Origin: Dehalococcoidia bacterium
GTDB taxonomy: Bacteria > Chloroflexota > Dehalococcoidia > Bin125
Direction: 5' to 3'
NCBI GenBank assembly: GCA_022825855.1
Contig: JAJDWB010000019.1
Span: 186,001-250,000, forward strand
Length of the DNA stretch: 64,000 nucleotides
Under the pieces are notes generated by a model that saw nothing but the letters and a program-made list of their open reading frames with translations, did not search any database and was not told the origin of the DNA. Shown one piece after another: positions 1 to 35,854 of this stretch. Made by a program: the position numbers and the translations under genes. Within the stretch, counting starts at the first letter, position 1, and each line of letters starts with the position of its first letter.

Positions 1-1533
1 CTCGATCTCTTGGTGGTAGCCGGCATCGATGAGCATCTGCTCAAGCTGCTTCGTCCCGCTCATCACGACCTGCGGGTGAGTCTCCGATAGTTGAACGCCA
101 TCCGAACCAACACAGGCCTTGATCGCGTTGAGGCCGTCTGAGTCATTATCCACGAATGCGATCCAGGGAATCTCGCCAAGATCTTCCAACGCCTCAAGGA
201 CTTTTCTCAGCCACTCCTTGGACTGGCCTTGCATATCGAGGAGTGTCACTCCCAGGCCACTCACGTCACGGCCCAGTAGAGGATCGAGCAGAATCGGAAT
301 CGTGGCCCGCTCGGCGGTGCCGTCTACGAGTATCACAAGTCTCGCGAAGAACAGCTCTCCTAAGGGGCGCGAGATATACCTCCTGAACACAGCGACCTTC
401 CGGACCGTTTCGTGTGTCAAGGTGCCCACTGAGGTTCCTCCGCTGGCTGATCGGATCAACCGTATCGCGTGGAGATCAGCTTCACCAACCAGCACATTGG
501 AGTGCGTGGCGACTAGTGCCTGCCCCGGCAGAGATTGGATCGATCGGTACACGGCCGCTTGTGCCTGTGGGTGCAGGTGGGCCTCTGGCTCCTCCAACAA
601 GGTCACAAGATGCGGGCGGATGCCCTGTTCGACACCGATTCTCAGCTTGCACATCGCGAAGTAGACGCGCAGCGCTGCGAGGCTGCGGCTACCTGATCCT
701 TGAAGGCGCATCGGGAGAGAGGCACTGTCAACCCCGCTTCCAATCACCACATCAACCGAGTGAATCAGGTCTTCCAATTGCTCAGGAAGCGGTCGAATCT
801 CGACCTGCTCAACACTGGATTGGGCACCCCTCATCTCCAGCAGCTCTTCCTCTAGGGTGCTGAGGGTTGAACTCGCCTGCCGCAACGAGCTTCCCAACTC
901 AGCAAGCTGCTCTTCTAGCGCCTCCCGATCCGATACAGAGATCCCAAGCTCGGCGAGAACTTCTCCCCAGTTCGAAGTGCGTCGAGCTAGGTCGGAGGAT
1001 AGATCGCGGGATGCTTCGACCAAGTGTGCCGCCACCAGCTCCATCACCTGCCGGGTCGGGACCAGATTAGATTCCTGCCACTCTCGACCTGCGTCGTCCC
1101 AAGTTAGATACTTCCGGCTCCAGGTAAGGAAAGCCGACTCTCGACTTGGCCGGAGGACCATTCGAATCGAAGTCCATTCGCCCCCGCCTGGGGCGTTCCA
1201 GTAGTTCCCTGCCAGTCGCTGGGCCACGACCTCAGAGAACTCCGTACCGGAAGAGCGGATCACTAGGTCAATAGTCGCCTCGTCGGCGACTGAATCGGAA
1301 GTGCGATGCAAGTCGTCCTGCATCGCCCTACGAAAGCCGCAAGCGGTCGCAACGGCTAGAAGGATGGAGGACTTGCCGGAGTTGTTCTCCCCTACGAGGA
1401 ACGTCGTGCCTCTCTCAAGGGGTATCTGCGCTTCGACGATGCTCCGAAAATTGGCAACTCGAACTTCCTCAATCCAAAGGTCTGCGACTGGCCCAGTCGA
1501 GGTCCCATGCTGCGTTGGCTCGTGGTTTGTCAT
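1..1533 (-). CDS. OLD-family ATP-dependent nuclease (AAA ATPase + TOPRIM), 3' end outside window
   Basis: Translating the minus strand from ATG at 1533 gives 511 residues with no stop before the window edge, so the C terminus is missing. The start MTNHEPTQHG is followed by an SMC/RecF-like N lobe with Walker A (FLVGENNSGKSS, about residues 46-57). Further on come the Walker B/ABC region LLEEPEAHLHPQ and an H-loop VATHSN. The last part is a TOPRIM domain with LVDGTAERATIP and FVDNDSDG. This order is that of OLD family overcoming-lysogenization-defect proteins, which are ATP-driven DNA nucleases; many act in phage defence (Gabija GajA is a member). The usual TOPRIM glutamate (LVEG) reads aspartate here. 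No GajB/UvrD-like partner is visible on the 3' side because the window ends. The ATPase/TOPRIM assignment is firm; a defence role is inferred from the neighbourhood. Confidence 0.88.
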   Translation of the reverse strand, partial: MTNHEPTQHGTSTGPVADLWIEEVRVANFRSIVEAQIPLERGTTFLVGENNSGKSSILLAVATACGFRRAMQDDLHRTSDSVADEATIDLVIRSSGTEFSEVVAQRLAGNYWNAPGGGEWTSIRMVLRPSRESAFLTWSRKYLTWDDAGREWQESNLVPTRQVMELVAAHLVEASRDLSSDLARRTSNWGEVLAELGISVSDREALEEQLAELGSSLRQASSTLSTLEEELLEMRGAQSSVEQVEIRPLPEQLEDLIHSVDVVIGSGVDSASLPMRLQGSGSRSLAALRVYFAMCKLRIGVEQGIRPHLVTLLEEPEAHLHPQAQAAVYRSIQSLPGQALVATHSNVLVGEADLHAIRLIRSASGGTSVGTLTHETVRKVAVFRRYISRPLGELFFARLVILVDGTAERATIPILLDPLLGRDVSGLGVTLLDMQGQSKEWLRKVLEALEDLGEIPWIAFVDNDSDGLNAIKACVGSDGVQLSETHPQVVMSGTKQLEQMLIDAGYHQEIE

Positions 1534-1899: not shown

Positions 1900-2373
1900 T
1901 CAGTCCTTGATGACTGAGAGCGGAGAACTCGGCGCTCTGACGACAGAACGCGGTGGCGGGGGAATTCGGTGGGCGTCGAGCCACTCCTGGCCTGTGATCG
2001 AAACCTGGCCTCTCTGAATCGTCATCGCGTTCATGTCCCGATGTACGGCCACCGTGCCGTACCGAAACGGACGTCCCATCGGGGATTCGTCAGCCAAGCG
2101 AAACACCCGCGAGCAGAGATCGGCCAGATCGCGCGGAATCCGATGAGACTCGTACGCTGTCGCCAGTTCGCTGAAGCGATCCTCGATCTCAATGAGCGCC
2201 GGCTCTGAAGCGAAGCTCGCGACCTCTTTCGCCAAATGCCTGCGCCCCCGGCGCTCCTCAATGGCCCTATGGACTCTGACTCGTAGTCGACCCACGGGAG
2301 CGGTGTTCCAGATGGTGATCACGGCGACGACGATCGCTGCAATGGAGCCCAGGATCGTCAGCACCGTCACCAA
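1900..2373 (-). CDS. Small membrane-anchored protein of unknown function, paralogue of the pseudogene at 8539-9078
   Basis: Starting at GTG 2373 this encodes 157 residues: one N-terminal transmembrane helix (VTVLTILGSIAAIVVAVITI), then a charged, probably helical soluble part and a tail with HRIPPPPRSVV. I do not recognise the family. The second copy 6.5 kb away is clearly homologous along its whole length (TVLTILGS..AAI, SEPAL.E.EDRF, FRLA.ESP.G.PFR, IPPPPR), which supports a real gene. The N terminus looks damaged. Upstream bases 2429-2374 still encode residues matching the other copy (DYAD, then DSTARK), but with an in-frame TGA and a frameshift before the transmembrane helix. Translation from the internal GTG would keep the helix. 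It could be a working short form or a decaying gene. Confidence 0.55.
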   Translation of the reverse strand: MVTVLTILGSIAAIVVAVITIWNTAPVGRLRVRVHRAIEERRGRRHLAKEVASFASEPALIEIEDRFSELATAYESHRIPRDLADLCSRVFRLADESPMGRPFRYGTVAVHRDMNAMTIQRGQVSITGQEWLDAHRIPPPPRSVVRAPSSPLSVIKD

Positions 2374-3048
2374 ACGCCCTTTCTCGCCGTCGAATCAACG
2401 AATTCCCTCTGTCTTCAGTCAGCGTAGTCCCTAGCCGGCTGCGCCCGCGCCGTCTCCTAGCACTAAGTGACGAAGAGCTACTCTTCCAACGCTGGTCCAA
2501 AGCGACGACCATCACCTTCCTGTTGTGCCAGCCGGAGAACCTGCGACTCGGCCGAGCCAGGATCGCTGACCTCTTTGATGTGAAGACCGACGTGCACACC
2601 GGCGCCTCGGAACTGAGCGCAACAACAAGAGAGCAAGGTGCGGCGACACCTATCAGGGCTTGCTCTAATCCAGCTGCGCCCAAAGCAACACTTTCAGTTA
2701 CAGTTGCATCTCGGCTTGCTGCCATTCTCGCCGACCATCGCCTCTTGAACACCGATTGCTCGTTCCGTCGGCTTCTGAGGTGCGTCACCATTCCGCCCTA
2801 ACCATCCATCCGCTTGCATGCACCTCGGCCCCCCAGCAGGTGGCGCGCTTTGGCCATCCAGTTCGCAATTCAGTACATGACGGTCCGAAAAAGTGGGCCG
2901 TCGTGTACCGAACTGCGAGCTTTCGTTTGGGAGTTCGCGCTCTAGCCATTTCTGCCATGCAGACCAAGTCATCTCGGACTTGGAGTCTTGATTCCGCATC
3001 TGCTGTCAAAGAGGGTGGCACCATACGCGAAAGCAAGACTGGGAGCCG
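2374..3048. other. Intergenic region holding a gene fossil and an attachment-site-like inverted repeat
   Basis: I see no convincing gene in these 675 bases; open frames here lack family features. Two things stand out. Positions 2429-2374 (minus strand) are the decayed 5' end of the neighbouring small membrane gene. Positions 2861-2920 form an imperfect inverted repeat whose left arm matches the end of the serine recombinase gene at 35.76 kb. Confidence 0.5.
2861..2920. repeat. Inverted repeat resembling a serine-recombinase attachment site
   Basis: Left arm 2861-2883 and right arm 2898-2920 are inverted copies (19 of 23 positions match) separated by 14 bases (2884-2897). The left arm also matches 35758-35780 at 21 of 23 positions, which is the last part of the large serine recombinase gene next to tRNA-Ile. 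Two symmetric arms around a short centre is how attachment sites of large serine recombinases are built. The right arm would be the inner left-end arm of the island, and the left arm either chromosomal or the end of an earlier tandem insertion. The crossover dinucleotide cannot be read from sequence alone. Confidence 0.55.
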
Positions 3049-8538: not shown

Positions 8539-9078
8539 TCACACGTTCACTGTTGGGATGAAAACACTGGGCGGTTTGACCTCAGGGCGCGGCGGAGGGG
8601 GAATCGTGTAAGGGTCGAGCCTAGTCCGCCCCCTAATCGACACCGAACCATCGCCGACGCTGATCACGTTCATGTCCTGATTCGCGACCAACTCCCGACA
8701 GCGAAACGGCATTCCTGCGGGCGATTCGCCAGCCAGGCGAAACGCCCGGGCCCAAAGGGCGGCGAGAGCATCCGGAATTCGCTTCGCCTAGTACGCCTTC
8801 AGCAACTCATCGAACCGGTCTTCGAACTCGACCAAGGCTGGTTCCGAGGCCAAGGTCGCGGCTTGCTTCGCCAACTGCGTCCGCGCCTGGCATTCGCGGA
8901 TGGCGCGTTGCACTCTGAGCCATTGCCGGCTGACGGGAGCCGTGTTCCAGATGGTGAGCACGGCAACGATGATCGCCGCGACAGAGCCGAGAATCGTCAG
9001 CACTGTCAGTTCTATGCTCCGTCTCGCAACTGAATCAGCGCGTTCAGCCGAGCCTGATTCAGCGTAGTCCGAATTCAT
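8539..9078 (-). pseudogene. Second copy of the small membrane protein, interrupted by an in-frame TAG
   Basis: From ATG 9078 (MNSDYAESGSAERADSVARR) the frame runs through a transmembrane helix matching the paralogue at 1900-2373 and reaches TAG at 8790-8788. The same frame continues past the stop for another 82 codons (RIPDALAALWARAFRLAGES, IPPPPRPEV) to TGA at 8541-8539, still aligned to the paralogue. The stop sits where the paralogue has GAG (AY-E-SHRIP versus AY-stop-AKRIP), so one G-to-T change explains it. The sequence on both sides is well conserved, so the mutation is recent or the stop is read through. Together with the damaged 5' end of the other copy, neither copy is intact. Its 5' end overlaps the 3' end of the SwmB pseudogene by 20 bases. 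Confidence 0.75.
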
Positions 9079-18293: not shown

Positions 18294-21200
18294 TCATCCC
18301 TCCGCCCACTCCACCTCGATACCGAGCTGGTCGAACCCTTCGACGATCCGCCGTTCGAGCACGTCTTCGCCGATGCCAGCCTCACTGGACACTTGAATCG
18401 TGAGTTGAATCTCTGCGCCTGCGTCCGCATCCTGCAGCGCTCTGAAGAGATAAGGCTGGAGATTGCTGGTCTTGGCGACCGCGAGATTGGGCACACTCAG
18501 CCGGACACGCCGGAATCGTCTAGACGGCGCGGGAATCCCGGGGTCGCCGTGCGGCTCGTCTGTTCTGGGATCTGATTCGGTGACCGGATCCTCAGCGACC
18601 GCCGTGCTGCCCTCAGTCTCGGGCTCTTCCGTCCGTAGCTCCTCCCGAATGAGGTCGCGCATGTCCCCCTTGACGAGTGATGCCGAGCCGTCGAGCAGGA
18701 CGTGCAGCAAGTCGAACTCATCTGCAGTCTCGATAAGCTGCTGATATCGAGCCGCGTCCGGGTCGCCAATGGCGACCGCCCACAACTTGCTGGCGACGCC
18801 CTCGCGGATGCAGTTGCGCAGGGTGGTCTCCCGATCGGGCAGGATCGGCAGGAACGTCCACTCTGGGAAGCGACGGAGCGCGTGCGAAAGGTCGAGCGGC
18901 TCCGACTCATCCCTCCAGAGACGAGAGGCGACCTTCGCGTTGAAGTAGATCGCTCCCATTCCCGACAGTACTTTGGGATCGCCGTAGTCCTGACTCGACA
19001 ATCTCTCCACGACTCGCTGGGCAATCTTGTCCTTCGCGGTCGCCGGGACGGCGAGCGACGCGTGCGCCAAGCCACTCGCGTCGGGGAAGTACACCCAGCG
19101 AAATGCCGTGACGACGCTGGTAGCCAGGCTGTCGTTCTTGTCCTTGGCGCGACTGGCGAGGTCCTTCCTCTCCAGTTCGCTCAAGTTCTCTAGGTTCGAC
19201 CCGAGCACCTGGTCGTATGCGAGTACTTCGCGAACCGCATCGCGCGCGCGATCCCACAGTTCCTGGTCGGGAGCGACCAGAACCAGGGCGTTCCTCCACT
19301 GCCGCAAGCCACCGCCGACTCGGTCCCACAGTTGCTCGACTCTGTCCGATCCGTTGGGAGACGCGTCGCCTAGGGGACTGCCAACCGTGAATCGCGGCGA
19401 CAGAACCGCGATCGTCGGATCGGGATTGTCCGGAATCTGATCGTCCGTTGCCGCCCACGCCAAAGACCTGAACCCCGGCTGCGCGCCAACCACGCTTTCG
19501 ACCTCTGCGCGGAGACGTTCGTCGACCGTTGAACTTGGCTGCCCGCTCGCGTTCTGAGCGATCATTCGGTAGATGTTCGGCTTGGTCTGGAAGCGCAGCC
19601 GGTCGCCTTCCTTGTGTACGTACCAAAGCGTCTCGTCGAGCGAGGTCAGCACCTCGGAGACGTACTCGGGGCCGAGGTTCGGCGCGACCGTCCCGAGTCG
19701 TAGCTCCTGGCTCGTGGCGCCGCTACGTTCCAGCCCGCCGAACGAGTGCATGAGCAGCGTGGTGGCCACGCCCCGCGACACGTGCAGGGACTCGTAGTCT
19801 CCGCCGCGGCGGGCGTCCTCGCGATTGGCGTGACCGTCGCCGCCGATGATGTCGGCGGCGACCACGGCGTCGTATCCACCGGCTGAACCGGCTGCGCTGA
19901 CGATCCGGGTACGGATACGCTCGCGCTCCAAATCGACATGAGCAGGCTGGATCATGTGGGCCTCGCGGCGATGACGCCACTGGTCCGCGACGACCGAAGC
20001 AAGTAACTGCAGAGTCGCCCGCGTCCGAGGAAAGTCCGACGCCGTGGACCATTTCTTGTAGATCACATCGAGCAGCTCAGGATGCAGCGGGTACGCATCC
20101 TCCATCCGCGCCAGATAGTCCGGCGACGTTACCGCCGCGTCGTAGCTGGCCGGCGTCCGTTCGTAGACCGCCCGGTACTCGCGGGCCACCCTCTGCGCCG
20201 CCTCTTGATCCACATGCTGAAACAGACGACGGCGCGTGAGACTGTAGATCTCTTCGTCGTTGACCGGCGTGCGTTTGGAAACGACCCGGTCGGCTCGTGG
20301 CTGGAGTTCGTCGAGAACGGTCAACTCGTGCTGCAGCGTTGCGGGGTCGAGTCCCCCGTACTCGCGCTTGCTCTTGGGCAGTGAGATCAAGATGCACACG
20401 CCGTCAACATTTCCGGCGAGCTGCAAGGTCTCCTGCAGGAATTGAACAGTTTGGCGGTAGAGATTTTGCGTGCGTCTGGTGTTTGAGAAACGCAGCTTGA
20501 CGAGGTAGCTGACAAGTTCGTCGAGCAGAATGAGGCAGGGCGAAGCCGCTTCCAACACTTGGCGGAACAGTTCGTTGCCAGGCGCCGTTCCGCGGCCGTC
20601 CGACTCCTGGACCAACGACCAACAGCCGGCCTGGTGCGCCAACTCACCCCAGAGTGTCGAGACTGAGGCGAGGTCCTCCTTGTTGACCGGTGTATCTGCG
20701 CCGACCTCCTGGCCGTCGAAGACAAGAACCTGCGATCGATCGGGCACACGAAGGTCACCCATCGCGACGCTCACGCTATCAATGGACTGAGCGACCGCAG
20801 GGCTGTTGATGATGTGGTAGAGCGTCAGCAAGGCGTGGGTCTTGCCTCCGCCGAAGGGAGTCTGAACTTCGGTGACGGCCGCTCCAGCTCCGCCATTCAT
20901 CCGGCTGAGCACGTCGCCCAGCATGAGAGTCAGGTTTTCGGTGAAGTAGGTCTGCGAGAGGAATCGCTCGGGTTGGAGATACTCATCTCGCGCCGAGCCT
21001 GCGAAGACGCCGCCAAGCGTGGCGGCAAACAGTCCTTCGTCAACGTGTCCCGGATCGCGGAACCCTTCGCGCGGTTCGCAGGTTTGCCACCAGTAGGGCA
21101 GCCCAGTGCGTGGAGTTGCCGGTGCAGGAGATTCGATAGCTGCAGGACGCGAATCGTCCAGTTCCATCATCAGGACCTGCTTGCGCAGTGCTTCGAGCTC

Positions 21201-21629
21201 CTCGGCTTCTGGAAGCTGGGCCCGTTCGAGAAGCTGGATCATCACGTAGAGCGACTGACCGGCGTCGTCTGCAGGAATGTCGCCGCTGCGCGAGTGCGCA
21301 GCGAGCATGTTTCGTGCTTCTGCGGCCTGCATCAGAAAGGACTGCGTTTGTTGGTAGTTCGGAAAGAGATGCTCGAAGGTGGCTGGGTGCCTTGCGACGA
21401 TCGCGGGGAAGTGGATCGCATCCAGGTAGTCCTCTGATTCCCGATCCGGGTCCTTCCTCATGCTGCGCCGGATGTTGTTGGCTTGCGGTCCCTTCAGCTC
21501 CTTGAGCACGCCGCGGTCGAACCAGTTGCTGGGAAACTGCTCGATCAGCAGATCCTTGATCAACCGGCGCATGGCGTCGGTGTAGAGCTTGAGGCCCTCG
21601 GCCAGGGCGGCGTAGTTACTCTGTGCCAT
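18294..21629 (-). CDS. DUF499 ATPase of an Hma-like defence system
   Basis: I take ATG 21629 (MAQSNYAALAEGLKL), which overlaps the end of the methylase gene by 14 bases; the frame stays open further upstream but that part is the shadow of the methylase. The product is 1111 residues. Walker A is EVQTPFGGGKTHALL (about 253-267) and Walker B LILLDEL (about 366-372), both typical of DUF499 proteins. The N terminus is helical (LYTDAMRRLIKDLL) and the C-terminal ~120 residues form a separate acidic and beta domain. DUF499 ATPases occur beside DUF1156 methylases and DUF3883 helicases. They probably act as large ATP-driven switches or DNA-handling motors; the mechanism is not known. Operon order is helicase, methylase, ATPase. 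Confidence 0.88.
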   Translation of the reverse strand: MAQSNYAALAEGLKLYTDAMRRLIKDLLIEQFPSNWFDRGVLKELKGPQANNIRRSMRKDPDRESEDYLDAIHFPAIVARHPATFEHLFPNYQQTQSFLMQAAEARNMLAAHSRSGDIPADDAGQSLYVMIQLLERAQLPEAEELEALRKQVLMMELDDSRPAAIESPAPATPRTGLPYWWQTCEPREGFRDPGHVDEGLFAATLGGVFAGSARDEYLQPERFLSQTYFTENLTLMLGDVLSRMNGGAGAAVTEVQTPFGGGKTHALLTLYHIINSPAVAQSIDSVSVAMGDLRVPDRSQVLVFDGQEVGADTPVNKEDLASVSTLWGELAHQAGCWSLVQESDGRGTAPGNELFRQVLEAASPCLILLDELVSYLVKLRFSNTRRTQNLYRQTVQFLQETLQLAGNVDGVCILISLPKSKREYGGLDPATLQHELTVLDELQPRADRVVSKRTPVNDEEIYSLTRRRLFQHVDQEAAQRVAREYRAVYERTPASYDAAVTSPDYLARMEDAYPLHPELLDVIYKKWSTASDFPRTRATLQLLASVVADQWRHRREAHMIQPAHVDLERERIRTRIVSAAGSAGGYDAVVAADIIGGDGHANREDARRGGDYESLHVSRGVATTLLMHSFGGLERSGATSQELRLGTVAPNLGPEYVSEVLTSLDETLWYVHKEGDRLRFQTKPNIYRMIAQNASGQPSSTVDERLRAEVESVVGAQPGFRSLAWAATDDQIPDNPDPTIAVLSPRFTVGSPLGDASPNGSDRVEQLWDRVGGGLRQWRNALVLVAPDQELWDRARDAVREVLAYDQVLGSNLENLSELERKDLASRAKDKNDSLATSVVTAFRWVYFPDASGLAHASLAVPATAKDKIAQRVVERLSSQDYGDPKVLSGMGAIYFNAKVASRLWRDESEPLDLSHALRRFPEWTFLPILPDRETTLRNCIREGVASKLWAVAIGDPDAARYQQLIETADEFDLLHVLLDGSASLVKGDMRDLIREELRTEEPETEGSTAVAEDPVTESDPRTDEPHGDPGIPAPSRRFRRVRLSVPNLAVAKTSNLQPYLFRALQDADAGAEIQLTIQVSSEAGIGEDVLERRIVEGFDQLGIEVEWAEG

Positions 21630-24425
21630 CGCCTTCGTCCATTCCGAGGCTGAGCTGCGGGCTCGGAGCGGGAGCTTCCGTAGGTCGCACGGTAGCGCCC
21701 AGCAGCCCCAGAATGACGCGGCGGTCCTCGTCGCCCTCTGGCAGGCACGAAGCGACGGCCTGGCCGAGCGTGAGCAGCGCTGACCAGCGAGACTCGCCCA
21801 GTGCCGCGCGATACTTGCCGAGCCGGTCGCTCTGGTTCTGTCCCCACAGCCACGCGGCGCACTGGAGCTGGTCAATCAACGCGGCGGTTCGGCCGGACGA
21901 TTCGCCTCCCAGATCGTCGTCATCTCGAGCGCGTTCGGCGATGGTGCGCAGCTTGACGAGCTTCTTGCTTCGCTGCTTCGCAGCCACGGCGATGGAATGG
22001 TCGCGAGTGACATCATCGAGACGAGTGCCAGTGGCGAGACAGAGCGCCAGCGCTTCCCCGGCGTCGAGCGCAGCCCGGGAGTAGCTCCACACCCAGGTCA
22101 CGTACTGCTGCGTCAGCGAATCGACCATGCCCAGGTCGGTGCCCTGAAGTACCTGTTCCAACGCCACCTTAGTCGATTCCTGACGCACGATATCGAGGAA
22201 GTCGCGTGCAGAAACCTCGGAACCATCAGGATTGAGCACACGCAAATGGCGGCCGAAGACGGAAAGCGCGGGGCCAATCGCTGAGATAAAGAAATCGGCT
22301 CCGCGAATCCCCTGGCCCCAGAAGTACAGCAGACGCTCTCTAATGACTGGCCGCATCTCATCCAACACGTCGCCGCGAAATGCATCCGTCGGCTCATCTT
22401 CGCGCTTGCGGCACACCATCCAAACGGATGTCTTGAGCCGAGCCTGAGCCGAGCCCGCAGTCCGTGACTCCATCTCCGTATCGATAGGCCAGGAGGCATC
22501 CGGGACCAGCCCGGCCGCCATGAGTCCCTCGATCAGGGTGCTCCATGCATCCGGGTCGGTATGGGCAAAGACCACGCCGGTGAGACCTCCGGGGTCGAGC
22601 GAACGAGCAATCGCTATGAAGGCCTCCTCCATTAGACCGACATAGCGCTGACGTTCTTCTGAGTCTTCGCTTTCCGACGCCATGATTGCTTGACGCGTCT
22701 TCGGTGTGAGTGGTAACTGCAATAGGTCGGGAAACAGAGGACCGATAGACCGCTTCAGCCAGACGTAGAAGAAGTCCGCCAGCCCCGCGTAGTCCATCGA
22801 GTTGTAGTAGGGGGGATCAGTCACCACGATGGAGAGCCCGTTTGGTGATGCCGTCGTCGCGTCTCGCTGAGCCACGGTTGCTGCGCGACCAGCAGGCGTG
22901 ATTGTTCCTACCACCTGCTTCAACGCACTGTCAAAGCTCCCACTAGAACTCGACAGCGGATTGATCTCGCAATAGTCCCAGACCATAGAAAGGGCTTGGC
23001 GCGTGAAGGTGTTGCCGACAGCTTCTCGGCTTGGTTGTACCCGAGAGAGTGTTGAGTTGTAGTCGGCGAGCTTGTCAAGCGCAAATGCCAGATAGATGGC
23101 GATAGCTTCAGTGTGTTGGTCTTCCAAGCCCCAGCTCTTCATTGCTGCGGAAGCCTCACCAACCAGCCGCGCAAATGTTGCCAGCGCTAGCTGTTGACGA
23201 TCGTTGAAGAGCTGGCCCCAATCTTCCAACCCGAAGGCGTCTATGCGTAGCCCCAAGGTCTTTCGGTCAATGGGCTCCGTGGGAACTAGGTCCAAATCAT
23301 CGACATGTGTGGACTGCTCCGTACGGAGTCGCCGAGCGGCCGCCTGGTAGATGTTTCCGTCTTGTCGAGTGTCCGGTCGATACGACTTGCCTTTTGTTCC
23401 TTCGTTCGTCAAAACTACTGCCGTCAGAGTCGCATCGAGACGACCATTTCTAGATAGCCGTCGGACCTCCGATCCCTTGACAACCTGGTCACAGAGCAGG
23501 CACCTAGTGTCTCCCCGCGATGTAGTCGCCTGTCCAGGACTGCCAGTGACGTCTTCGCCATCCACAACGCCAAAATCGACTGTTCCAACCTCGCGATCGA
23601 TGACTGGCTCGAGCGCGACCCTTTTCTTCAGCTTACGGGCGAGCCAATACTGACGAATCAGCGGCATGTCTGCCTCGCAACTGGGACAGGGAATCGTCCG
23701 GCTCCAGAGGTAGGCAACGGGCACGCTGCCATCGGGATCGGACGGATAGAACTCTGCAAGTTCCTCGCGCGCCCGTCCCAGCACCCATTGACCCCAGTAA
23801 CGCACGTTGGTGGCGAGCGGGTTGCGCTGATACTCTGCGGTCCATTCCCCAGCCGCGAGACCTGGTTGTTCGGACTCCCGATCGGCCTCCAGAATGTATT
23901 CGGGCACGTCGCGGCTGTTTGGATGGCCAAACTTCTGCGGATACACCAGCGTGCCCTTGAGGATCAGGACCGCGACCGGATTAAGATCGCTTGCTTCCAC
24001 ATCCAGCCCCAAGCGCAACCCTTCCAGGGGAATAGCCCCTCCGCCCGCGAACGGATCGAGCAGCTTCGGCGGCTTGCCGTCGTTGCAGGCGAGAATGCGT
24101 TCCCGCGCCCGTTCCAGGAGCTCTCTACCCGTTAGGCCGGTGCCGCCTTCATCCTCGCTCCGAACTACGCGATCCGGATACCGAACCGCGACCCACTGTG
24201 CGAGATCGGCGACCTCACGGAGCAGCGCATCGCGTTCTTTGTCGGTGCCGGGATCGTCGACCAGAGACGCATAGATAAATGCGCGGCACGCAGCCAAGGG
24301 CCTTCGCGCCCACCATTTGTGGAGAGTTTGTGGGTGTGGACTGCCCCTGTTCGAGTCCTTGCGCGAATCGTTGGAGACCTCCTCCAGCGGAAAGGCAACT
24401 TCGATCAGCCGCTTCCGGCGTTCGC

Positions 24426-24429
<4 letters not shown>
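21616..24429 (-). CDS. DUF1156 DNA methyltransferase of an Hma-like defence system
   Basis: ATG 24429 overlaps the helicase stop as ATGA, which fixes the start (MSERRKRLIEVAFPLEEVS); 937 residues. The DUF1156 N terminus is clear (HPQTLHKWWARRPLAACRAF, about 32-51). The SAM-binding motif DPFAGGGAIPLEGL is at about 125-138. A CPSC..(about 250) and CLLC pair suggest a zinc ribbon inserted in the fold. The catalytic motif IVVTDPPYYNSMDY (about 535-548) fits an amino-group (N6-adenine or N4-cytosine) DNA methyltransferase. It presumably marks host DNA so that the companion helicase/ATPase proteins spare it. The target sequence cannot be read from the protein. Confidence 0.92.
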
Positions 24430-27809
<3,380 letters not shown>

Positions 27810-28067
27810 CGACGGTGAGGCCTGTCGTCTACATCCCGCGACTACGGTAACCCTCAGCGTCAAATGTGGGCTGAAGAGTGCTCGCTTCTGGGATCATCGC
27901 CCGATAGGACCGCACGCTCAAGACTGACTTGACCTGGTTGGCAGAGGACGAAGGTCGCGCAATGCGAGAGATTCAGGCTGCCACGAGCAGTAGGTCACTA
28001 TTCGGGCCGCGCCGGAGCTTCTGGTTAGCGACTAGATGCTGGGAGTCGTGAAGCTGGTCCAGTTAGA

Positions 28068-34200: not shown

Positions 34201-35835
34201 ATGAACACTCAACCCTCCCGGATCTCGGCCGCTCTCTACGCCCGCGTTTCCTCCGACCGACAGGACGTTGACCTCTCCGTCGCGGCGCAGCTTCGGGCCC
34301 TGCGCGACTTCGCCGAGCGCAACGGCTACCGCGTCGTGCGGGAGTACATCGACGAGGCCGAGTCAGGACGAGTCGCCGACCGGCCGCAATTCCGCAAGAT
34401 GTTGGACGAAGCCTCGGAGACGGAGTCGCCCTTCCAAGAGATCCTGGTCTGGAAGTTCTCCCGCTTTACCCGCAAGCGCGAACACGCGGTCGCCTTCAAG
34501 TCTATGCTCAGGCGGCGCGGGATCCGGGTCACCTCGATCACCGAGCACGCCGACGACACGCCCACGGGCAAGCTGATGGAAGCGATCATCGAGAGCGTCG
34601 ACGAGTTCTACTCAGAGAACCTCGCCCAGGAAGTCCGCCGGGGGATGCGCGAGTCGGCCTCGCGCGGCTTCTACCTGGCCTCGCACGCACCGCTCGGCTA
34701 CCGCAAGGTCTACGTCACGGACGGCGGCAAGCAGCGGCCCCGGCTCGAACTCGACCCGCCCAGGGACGCCGTCGTGCGGCGCATCTTCGAGATGGCGCTG
34801 CGCGGACAGAGCATCCTCGAGGTCGTGAAGACGCTCAACTCAGAAGGCATTCCCTCGGCCAAGGGCAAGCGCTGGCTCAAGACCGCAGTCCACAAGATCC
34901 TCTCCAACGAGGTCTACAAGGGCACCCTGGTCTGGGGACTCAAGGCGACCGACGGCTCGGAGCCGGTCCGGGTCGAGAACGCCGTGCCCGCGATCGTTTC
35001 GAAGGAAGAGTTCGAACAGGTGGGGGCGATGCTCGAAGCGCGGGCGCCGGCCAAGTCCAACCCGCGCCGCGCGTCCAGTCCCTACCTGCTCTCCGGCCTG
35101 GTCGGCTGCGCACTCTGCGGCAAGCAGTTGACGGCGTCCGAGGCCAAGGGCGGGCGGTACTCGTACTACGTCTGCGGCTCCCTGCTCAAGCGCGGCGCGG
35201 GCAGCTGCGAGACGCCCAGGCTCAATGCCAGGCGGTTCGAGACCCTGATCCTCGACCAGCTCCGCGACCACGTGCTGACGGAGAGCAACATCCGCGAGTT
35301 GGTCAAGATGCTGGACGAGGAGATGGACGGCGCCGCCCGCCAGGAGCGCGAACGGCTGGAGATGATCGAGGCGGAACTGCGCGAGATTCGGCTGATGCTG
35401 GACCGCATCTGGCGGGTGATTGAGAAGACCGACCTGGAGATCGACGACGCCGCGCCGCGCATCCGCGAGCACATGGCGCGCAAAGAGCAGTTAGAGACAG
35501 CCGCCGAGCGGGCAAGGAAGGCTCTGGCCGAACGGCGCGCGCTGCTGGACAAGGCTGAGGTAGTGGCCGAGTTCGCCGCCGACATGGCCGAGTTCCTGCG
35601 CACCAGCGACATCACCGAGTCGAAGGCGTTCCTCCGCACGTTCATCAAGCAGATCGACGTGGAGCCCGGGCGGGCCGTGATCAACTACACGATCCCGATG
35701 CCGGAAGACAGTCCGATTGGCCGCAAAGATGCCGCCGAGGTGGCGCTCGCAGAAGGAGTTCGCAATTCGGTACATGATGGTGGGCCATCCTGGACTCGAA
35801 CCAGGGACCTCAGTCTTATCAGGACTGCGCTCTAA
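34201..35835 (+). CDS. Large serine recombinase (integrase of the island)
   Basis: 544 residues from ATG 34201. The N-terminal resolvase domain has the catalytic serine in ALYARVSSDRQ (S17) and later arginines (KFSRFTRKREHA). The recombinase domain follows (ASHAPLGYRKVYV, LNSEGIPSAKGKRWLKTAVH). A zinc ribbon is present (LVGCALCGKQL ... YVCGS ... CETPRLNA), then a coiled coil (about 385-450), as in phage and ICE integrases. The last ~18 codons (from GGPSWTRTRDLSL) are the antisense of tRNA-Ile, so the natural C terminus has been extended by the insertion junction. The gene lies at the edge of the element, pointing at the tRNA, as expected for an integrase next to its attachment site. No excisionase was recognised. 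Confidence 0.93.
   Translation: MNTQPSRISAALYARVSSDRQDVDLSVAAQLRALRDFAERNGYRVVREYIDEAESGRVADRPQFRKMLDEASETESPFQEILVWKFSRFTRKREHAVAFKSMLRRRGIRVTSITEHADDTPTGKLMEAIIESVDEFYSENLAQEVRRGMRESASRGFYLASHAPLGYRKVYVTDGGKQRPRLELDPPRDAVVRRIFEMALRGQSILEVVKTLNSEGIPSAKGKRWLKTAVHKILSNEVYKGTLVWGLKATDGSEPVRVENAVPAIVSKEEFEQVGAMLEARAPAKSNPRRASSPYLLSGLVGCALCGKQLTASEAKGGRYSYYVCGSLLKRGAGSCETPRLNARRFETLILDQLRDHVLTESNIRELVKMLDEEMDGAARQERERLEMIEAELREIRLMLDRIWRVIEKTDLEIDDAAPRIREHMARKEQLETAAERARKALAERRALLDKAEVVAEFAADMAEFLRTSDITESKAFLRTFIKQIDVEPGRAVINYTIPMPEDSPIGRKDAAEVALAEGVRNSVHDGGPSWTRTRDLSLIRTAL
35758..35780 (+). repeat. Right-end attachment arm of the island
   Basis: These 23 bases match 2861-2883 at 21 positions and, inverted, 2898-2920 at 19. 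They lie inside the 3' end of the recombinase gene and stop exactly at the CCA end of tRNA-Ile (35778-35780). I read them as the element-derived arm of the right junction. Confidence 0.55.
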
Positions 35836-35854
35836 CCTGCTGAGCTAATGGCCC
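35778..35854 (-). tRNA. tRNA-Ile(GAT)
   Basis: A full cloverleaf on the minus strand: acceptor GGGCCAT/ATGGCCC, anticodon loop CTGATAA (GAT), T-loop TTCGAGT, encoded CCA. It lies 247 bases downstream of 16S, the normal spacer position in an rRNA operon. Its 3' end abuts the recombinase gene. Confidence 0.96.

Follow-up and report, generated by a model that had tools for sequence, protein, structure and literature searches.

The question raised by this locus is what the two-armed site at 2861-2920 represents, its arms resembling the end of a recombinase-bearing element that lies beside a tRNA-Ile gene. The window (the whole stretch of DNA analysed, 64,000 nucleotides, C22:186001-250000) belongs to a Dehalococcoidia genome of 2.82 Mb in 22 contigs. 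As judged from sequence alone, the site is very likely the seam at which one mobile element adjoins another behind tRNA-Ile, each with anti-virus genes of its own; a 5.2-kb Gabija element without recombinase would contribute its right end, followed by a GG crossover and the left end of a 33-kb element bearing a large serine recombinase (LSR). The evidence included no circular form, no reads, no recombination assay and no pair of strains with and without one of the units.

When re-read from the sequence, the arm at 35758-35780 was identical to 2861-2883 at 21 of 23 positions and to the inverted arm at 2898-2920 at 19 of 23, with 14 bases separating the two left arms; positions, identities and spacing all held as an earlier sequence-only reading had given them. 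No further position of the window matched the right-end arm with five mismatches or fewer. A 22-bp consensus (up to three mismatches) matched only the three arm places in the window and displayed no match in 100 dinucleotide shuffles of it. The whole genome contained seven arm matches, all at element ends, while a reversed control gave none. The sequence-only reading would have been refuted by an arm occurring at many unrelated places; this was not met, as the arm did recur in the genome and in relatives, but at element ends and tRNA genes.

The 23-bp arm could be refined to a half-site of 24 bp. Site 2861-2920 consists of 24 bp (2861-2884, plus strand), 10 bp CCGAAAAAGT (2885-2894, plus strand), GG (2895-2896, plus strand) and another 24 bp (2897-2920, minus strand). 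The first is the right-end arm of the left element, as indicated by arm comparison, junction scan and shuffle control; the extra 10 bp between arm and crossover has versions of 9-11 bp in congeners; GG, aligned with 78 tRNA junctions and with canonical 24-GG-24 junctions, is the inferred crossover dinucleotide of the element-element junction; and the last is the left-end half-site of the 33-kb element, matching in type the outer left end (C22:183659-183682). The right end is laid out as 24 bp (35758-35781), GG (35782-35783) and tRNA-Ile. The first arm of the two-armed site is thus placed 10 bp further from the crossover than the usual spacing. Scanning the window with 21 known arm types for further half-sites inside the 33-kb element yielded, at best, 6 mismatches of 24.

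The 33-kb element (2897-35781) carries HEC-07-like, PDC-S02-like, HmaABC and PD-Lambda-4-like genes, with the recombinase at its right end. The Hma system (18294-27863, minus strand) comprises HmaC (DUF499), HmaB (DUF1156 methylase) and HmaA (SNF2 helicase), with PADLOC E-values of 5.1e-123, 5.8e-129 and 3.8e-219, respectively. The LSR (34201-35835, plus strand; 544 aa) displays the Resolvase, Recombinase and Zn-ribbon domains that define its class (Pfam E=4.5e-33, 1.8e-23 and 3.1e-11). The right-end (P) half-site of the element (35758-35781, plus strand) supplies, with its last four bases TGGT, A73-CCA of the insertion target tRNA-Ile(GAT) (35778-35854, minus strand), which lies downstream of 16S rRNA. 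As inferred from junction alignment, the crossover GG (35782-35783, plus strand) corresponds to tRNA positions 71-72. The last ~17 LSR codons lie beyond the crossover, antisense to tRNA-Ile; since the frame crosses into the target, each integration alters the C-terminal tail, as also reported for the recombinase DsiB (PMC3146451). The predicted attP of the element is GTTCGCAATTCGGTACATGATGGT-GG-GCCGTCGTGTACCGAACTGCGAGC. The 16S rRNA gene was found with tRNA-Ile on C22 (36102-37601) and LSU rRNA on contig C20 (L015 365-3353), and 16S and 23S thus appear unlinked.

A tandem junction at 2861-2920 implies a further single outer end on the left, and this was present at C22:183657-183682 as GG-ACCGTCGTGTACCGAACTGCGAAC, adjoined by a chromosomal flank ending in TGATGGT. 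The left element covers C22:183659-188894 (1-2894 within the window), is 5.2 kb long and starts 2.3 kb left of the window. Its gajA-like gene (1-1533, minus strand; whole gene -272 to 1533) encodes an OLD-type AAA ATPase of 601 aa (PADLOC GajA E=5.1e-88), and gajB, a UvrD helicase gene (PADLOC GajB E=2.6e-92), lies just left of the window; no recombinase gene is present. Adjacency of gajA and gajB, the criterion for Gabija, was met, the anti-phage activity itself being only inferred, and the OLD nuclease of the sequence-only reading was hence refined to GajA of a Gabija pair. A small ORF with a hydrophobic N-terminus (1900-2373, minus strand) is located near the right end of this unit. Region ~1927-2369 displayed a 70% DNA match to 8566-9008 in the 33-kb unit and also matched G001, G013, G003 and G008; this likeness possibly marks a lost element boundary near 9.0 kb.

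The outer flank ends in TGGT-GG, and TGGTGG is the reverse complement of CCACCA; it is inferred to be the 3' end displaced from tRNA-Ile by insertion. The displaced half differs from the empty-site sequence of congener G010. The flank, whose gene appeared thymidylate-kinase-like by eye, matched G010:C2:64759-66106, with tRNA-Ile and the 16S leader region at 68106; the distance from flank to tRNA-Ile is ~2 kb in that genome, where tRNA-Ile appears unoccupied, versus 38 kb here. The 3' side of tRNA-Ile was compared in eight congeners (ARAGORN): G000 and G004 have recombinase ends there, G005 a B-type right end, G008 a different end-like sequence and G003 what may be a relic, while G010, G006 and G001 look empty.

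The Gabija unit itself occurs elsewhere, in G013:C43 (77% DNA match; left end ~66470, extended right end 71385) and in G001:C30 (78% DNA match; directly right of another extended two-armed site), with neighbours differing from those here. As it lacks its own recombinase gene, it presumably moved in trans, although no transfer was observed. Its predicted circle junction would be its right end followed by GG and ACCGTCGTGTACCGAACTGCGAAC. Together, the outer left end, the Gabija unit elsewhere and the swapped end partners described below support the claim that the site joins tandem elements. The further claim that the left element is the older one goes beyond what the sequence shows, since either insertion order yields the same product and the age order cannot be told.

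LSR homologs (E<=1e-40) were found in 76 of the 294 sampled Dehalococcoidia genomes, and for most type-A genes the terminus coincides with a tRNA 3' end. Among 86 distinct LSR-tRNA junctions, 78 could be aligned directly via the encoded CCA, and the tallies given here cover those 78, which span 19 anticodons (Ile, Ala, Met, Glu, Gln, Arg, Val, Asn, Leu, Lys, Tyr). The 24-bp element half-site starts with GTTC, GTTA or GTAC in 75 of them; its 3' bases are TGGT (67/78) or TGGC (11/78), the latter all at Gln and Asn tRNAs, base 73 then being G. The two following bases, tRNA positions 71-72, are GG (56), TG (7), AG (6), AC (5) or TC (4), a fixed tRNA position. In all 78, the end of the T-loop GAAC (GTTC on the tRNA strand) lies 18 bp out. 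The right half-site is one and the same in the three LSR copies of this genome, which are 96-100% identical and sit on Ile, Met and Ala tRNAs. The GTTC-type motif (GTTC/GTTA/GTAC) lies at 21-24 bp in the element versus 15-18 bp in the tRNA; this 6-bp shift resembles that of LI integrase, whose outer (ZD) motif is 5 bp nearer the centre in attB than in attP (PMC3783163). The T-loop would be the motif recognised by the LSR, an inference without support from any recombination assay.

The nearest named relatives are Dehalococcoidia/Chloroflexi metagenome-assembled genomes. Two contigs titled Bryobacterales (Acidobacteriota; L032, L043) carried the same recombinase family, possibly through inter-phylum transfer or mis-binning. 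Some recombinase copies contained one in-frame TAG or TGA (e.g. G001:C20, G003:C29, G008:C3). Several such copies lie at tRNA-Glu, and either gene decay or a stop codon located in the tail may be the cause.

Scanning of the fetched loci revealed that half-sites are modular. Left ends GG-RCCGTCGTGTACCGAACTGCGAAC were found after chromosomal halves, A-type right ends, B-type right ends (GTTCTCGATTTTGTCCAGTTTGGT) and extended right ends, the latter being composed of the arm, about CCGAAAAAGT, and GG. Extended right ends join A-type left ends in the window, L198, L197 and L205, a variant left end in L259 and, in L244, a B-type left end with its own recombinase of a second LSR type; these ends and their swapped partners are directly observed. 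A related extended end with a different spacer is placed directly on tRNA-Glu in L265 and L253, while no CCGAAAAAGT-type extended end was seen directly on a tRNA in 15 congeners. The arm at C20:63640 was considered as a left end and ruled out, the alignment identifying it as a right end with another spacer on tRNA-Glu. In G005 (L209) a B-type right end directly abuts tRNA-Ile, and in several loci such ends adjoin A-type left ends. In many loci a single junction separates two recombinases that face each other: type A terminates at its own right half-site and type B, a separate clade present only on the left-end side, at its own left half-site. Canonical 24-GG-24 junctions were encountered in L200 and L201; with their matching half-sites they fulfil, as far as sequence can tell, the ~50-bp attP form of two inverted half-sites around a dinucleotide. 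The recurrence of similar two-armed junctions in congeners supports the suggestion that the site is used repeatedly and that elements pile up as an array.

The extra bases in extended right ends amount to 9-15 bp; it is no more than a guess that they may stop the displaced arm from working as an attP half, locking the unit or making its end a target. Recombinase-less units lying between a left end and a right end of the extended kind gave matches to DruE and DruF of Druantia (G001:C4) or encoded Druantia-, DISARM- and Dpd-like proteins (G001:C30), this defence cargo being known from a handful of units without a survey. At tRNA-Arg in L256 (G010:C2:161172), the adjoining left-end arm is turned the opposite way from usual, possibly through a reversed insertion.

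In the mechanism proposed here, a tRNA gene would be joined at its 3' end by the LSR to a 50-bp attP, which is built of 24 bp, a dinucleotide and 24 bp, its two arms being inverted. Crossing over would fall at tRNA positions 71-72; the right half-site of the element would provide CCA and the discriminator base, while the acceptor stem and T-arm would make up the part of attB that lies in the tRNA. The next element would be added at the same tRNA, producing the order left end, element, right end-left end, element, right end-tRNA. That the LSR found here does the joining, as members of its class do between attP and attB without host factors, is inferred, as no recombination was observed. Site 2861-2920 is not an exact attP x attR product because its first arm lies 10 bp too far from the crossover; and since serine integrases usually do not target attR or attL (PMC3783163), how the second element was added remains open. 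A bolder reading, which could as well prove wrong as right, is that of a class-wide family of serine integrases that specialise in tRNA genes as such and build arrays of defence cassettes. The near-universal T-arm and CCA end would be read as one attB half, allowing one enzyme to serve many tRNAs, and the arrays would be interchangeable cassettes, many without their own integrase and moved in trans.

Two alternatives to the seam were considered very unlikely. In the first, the whole 38 kb would be a single element and the palindrome an accessory site within it, either with a regulatory role or acting as a recombination enhancer. It is favoured by the arms and spacer forming one compact inverted repeat that recurs whole in congeners; however, in G013 and G001 the Gabija unit is delimited by ends of its own and flanked by different neighbours, more than one left-end type is found joined to the first half (L244, L259), and the halves of canonical two-armed junctions are not alike. 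According to the second, the site is an attP-like product of an unresolved dimer or of integration of a circular form, and not a junction of unrelated elements. The junctions with two A-type arms in L200 and L201 do resemble intact attP, but the two units here differ in cargo, the LSR is in the right unit with none in the left, and the spacing at 2861-2920 is not attP-like. A bidirectional terminator or other hairpin with only incidental likeness to recombinase ends was all but excluded: 71 nt around the arms form a long hairpin whose loop has 8 nt (-18.9 kcal/mol, z = -5.5), but this follows from the arms being inverted repeats, no T-run is found after the stem, and the same arm marks element and tRNA borders genome-wide with no control matches.

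The preferred reading, a seam of stacked elements, has its nearest precedent in the ssrA islands of Dehalococcoides, which are tandem and in which the 540-aa CcrB-like recombinase DsiB always overlaps att at its 3' end (PMC3146451); 15 of 31 such islands are without the integration module, a set of six genes that includes dsiA, parB and mom (McMurdie et al. 2011, PMC3146451). Bacterial class, a recombinase gene overlapping att, tandem units and recombinase-less units are common to both. The ssrA islands, however, target ssrA with an inferred T-loop crossover and a 20-bp direct repeat, whereas many tRNAs are targeted here at their 3' ends, with a crossover at 71-72 and only TGGTGG repeated; integration at ssrA, the mark of those islands, was not met. 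Recombinases near ssrA in related genomes were only 24-29% identical to this LSR and formed a separate clade with 100% support, which is why membership of the DsiB family is not claimed. Dehalococcoides tRNA-Ala islands, described in 2009, have repeated 3' fragments and an adjacent site-specific recombinase gene (PMC2764846); likewise, members of the present family were found at tRNA-Ala in single-contig genomes of one related family (f14). The relevant sections of that paper contain no half-site rules, multi-tRNA range or defence arrays.

The best NCBIfam match of the LSR was CcrB, at 134 bits versus a cut-off of 900, and it does not qualify as an SCC/Ccr ortholog; SCC uses serine recombinases as here, but targets rlmH instead of tRNA genes. 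SCC occurs as tandem composites, including recombinase-less ones. Multi-targeting LSRs, of which one type uses several genomic sites, have been described (PMC10083194); the word tRNA is absent from the main text of that paper, while the common target here is one structural tRNA position. Islander tRNA islands also insert at the tRNA 3' end and restore the gene, but with tyrosine integrases (PMC4383910); the recombinase at this tRNA border being a serine recombinase, the locus is not such a tyrosine-integrase island. In the open-licence literature searched, the Dehalococcoides papers came closest to tRNA-targeting serine integrases in Chloroflexota.

Transfer RNA genes are classic targets of tyrosine integrases, and according to a 2014 paper no serine integrases were then known to specify tRNA genes (PMC4383910). 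That picture would be widened by a large family of serine integrases following fixed rules at tRNA ends, and the family would also supply integrases that may address conserved tRNA sites. The rule of 24 bp plus a dinucleotide at tRNA 71-72 would delimit the defence cassettes of Dehalococcoidia, including recombinase-less ones that are probably missed by other island finders.
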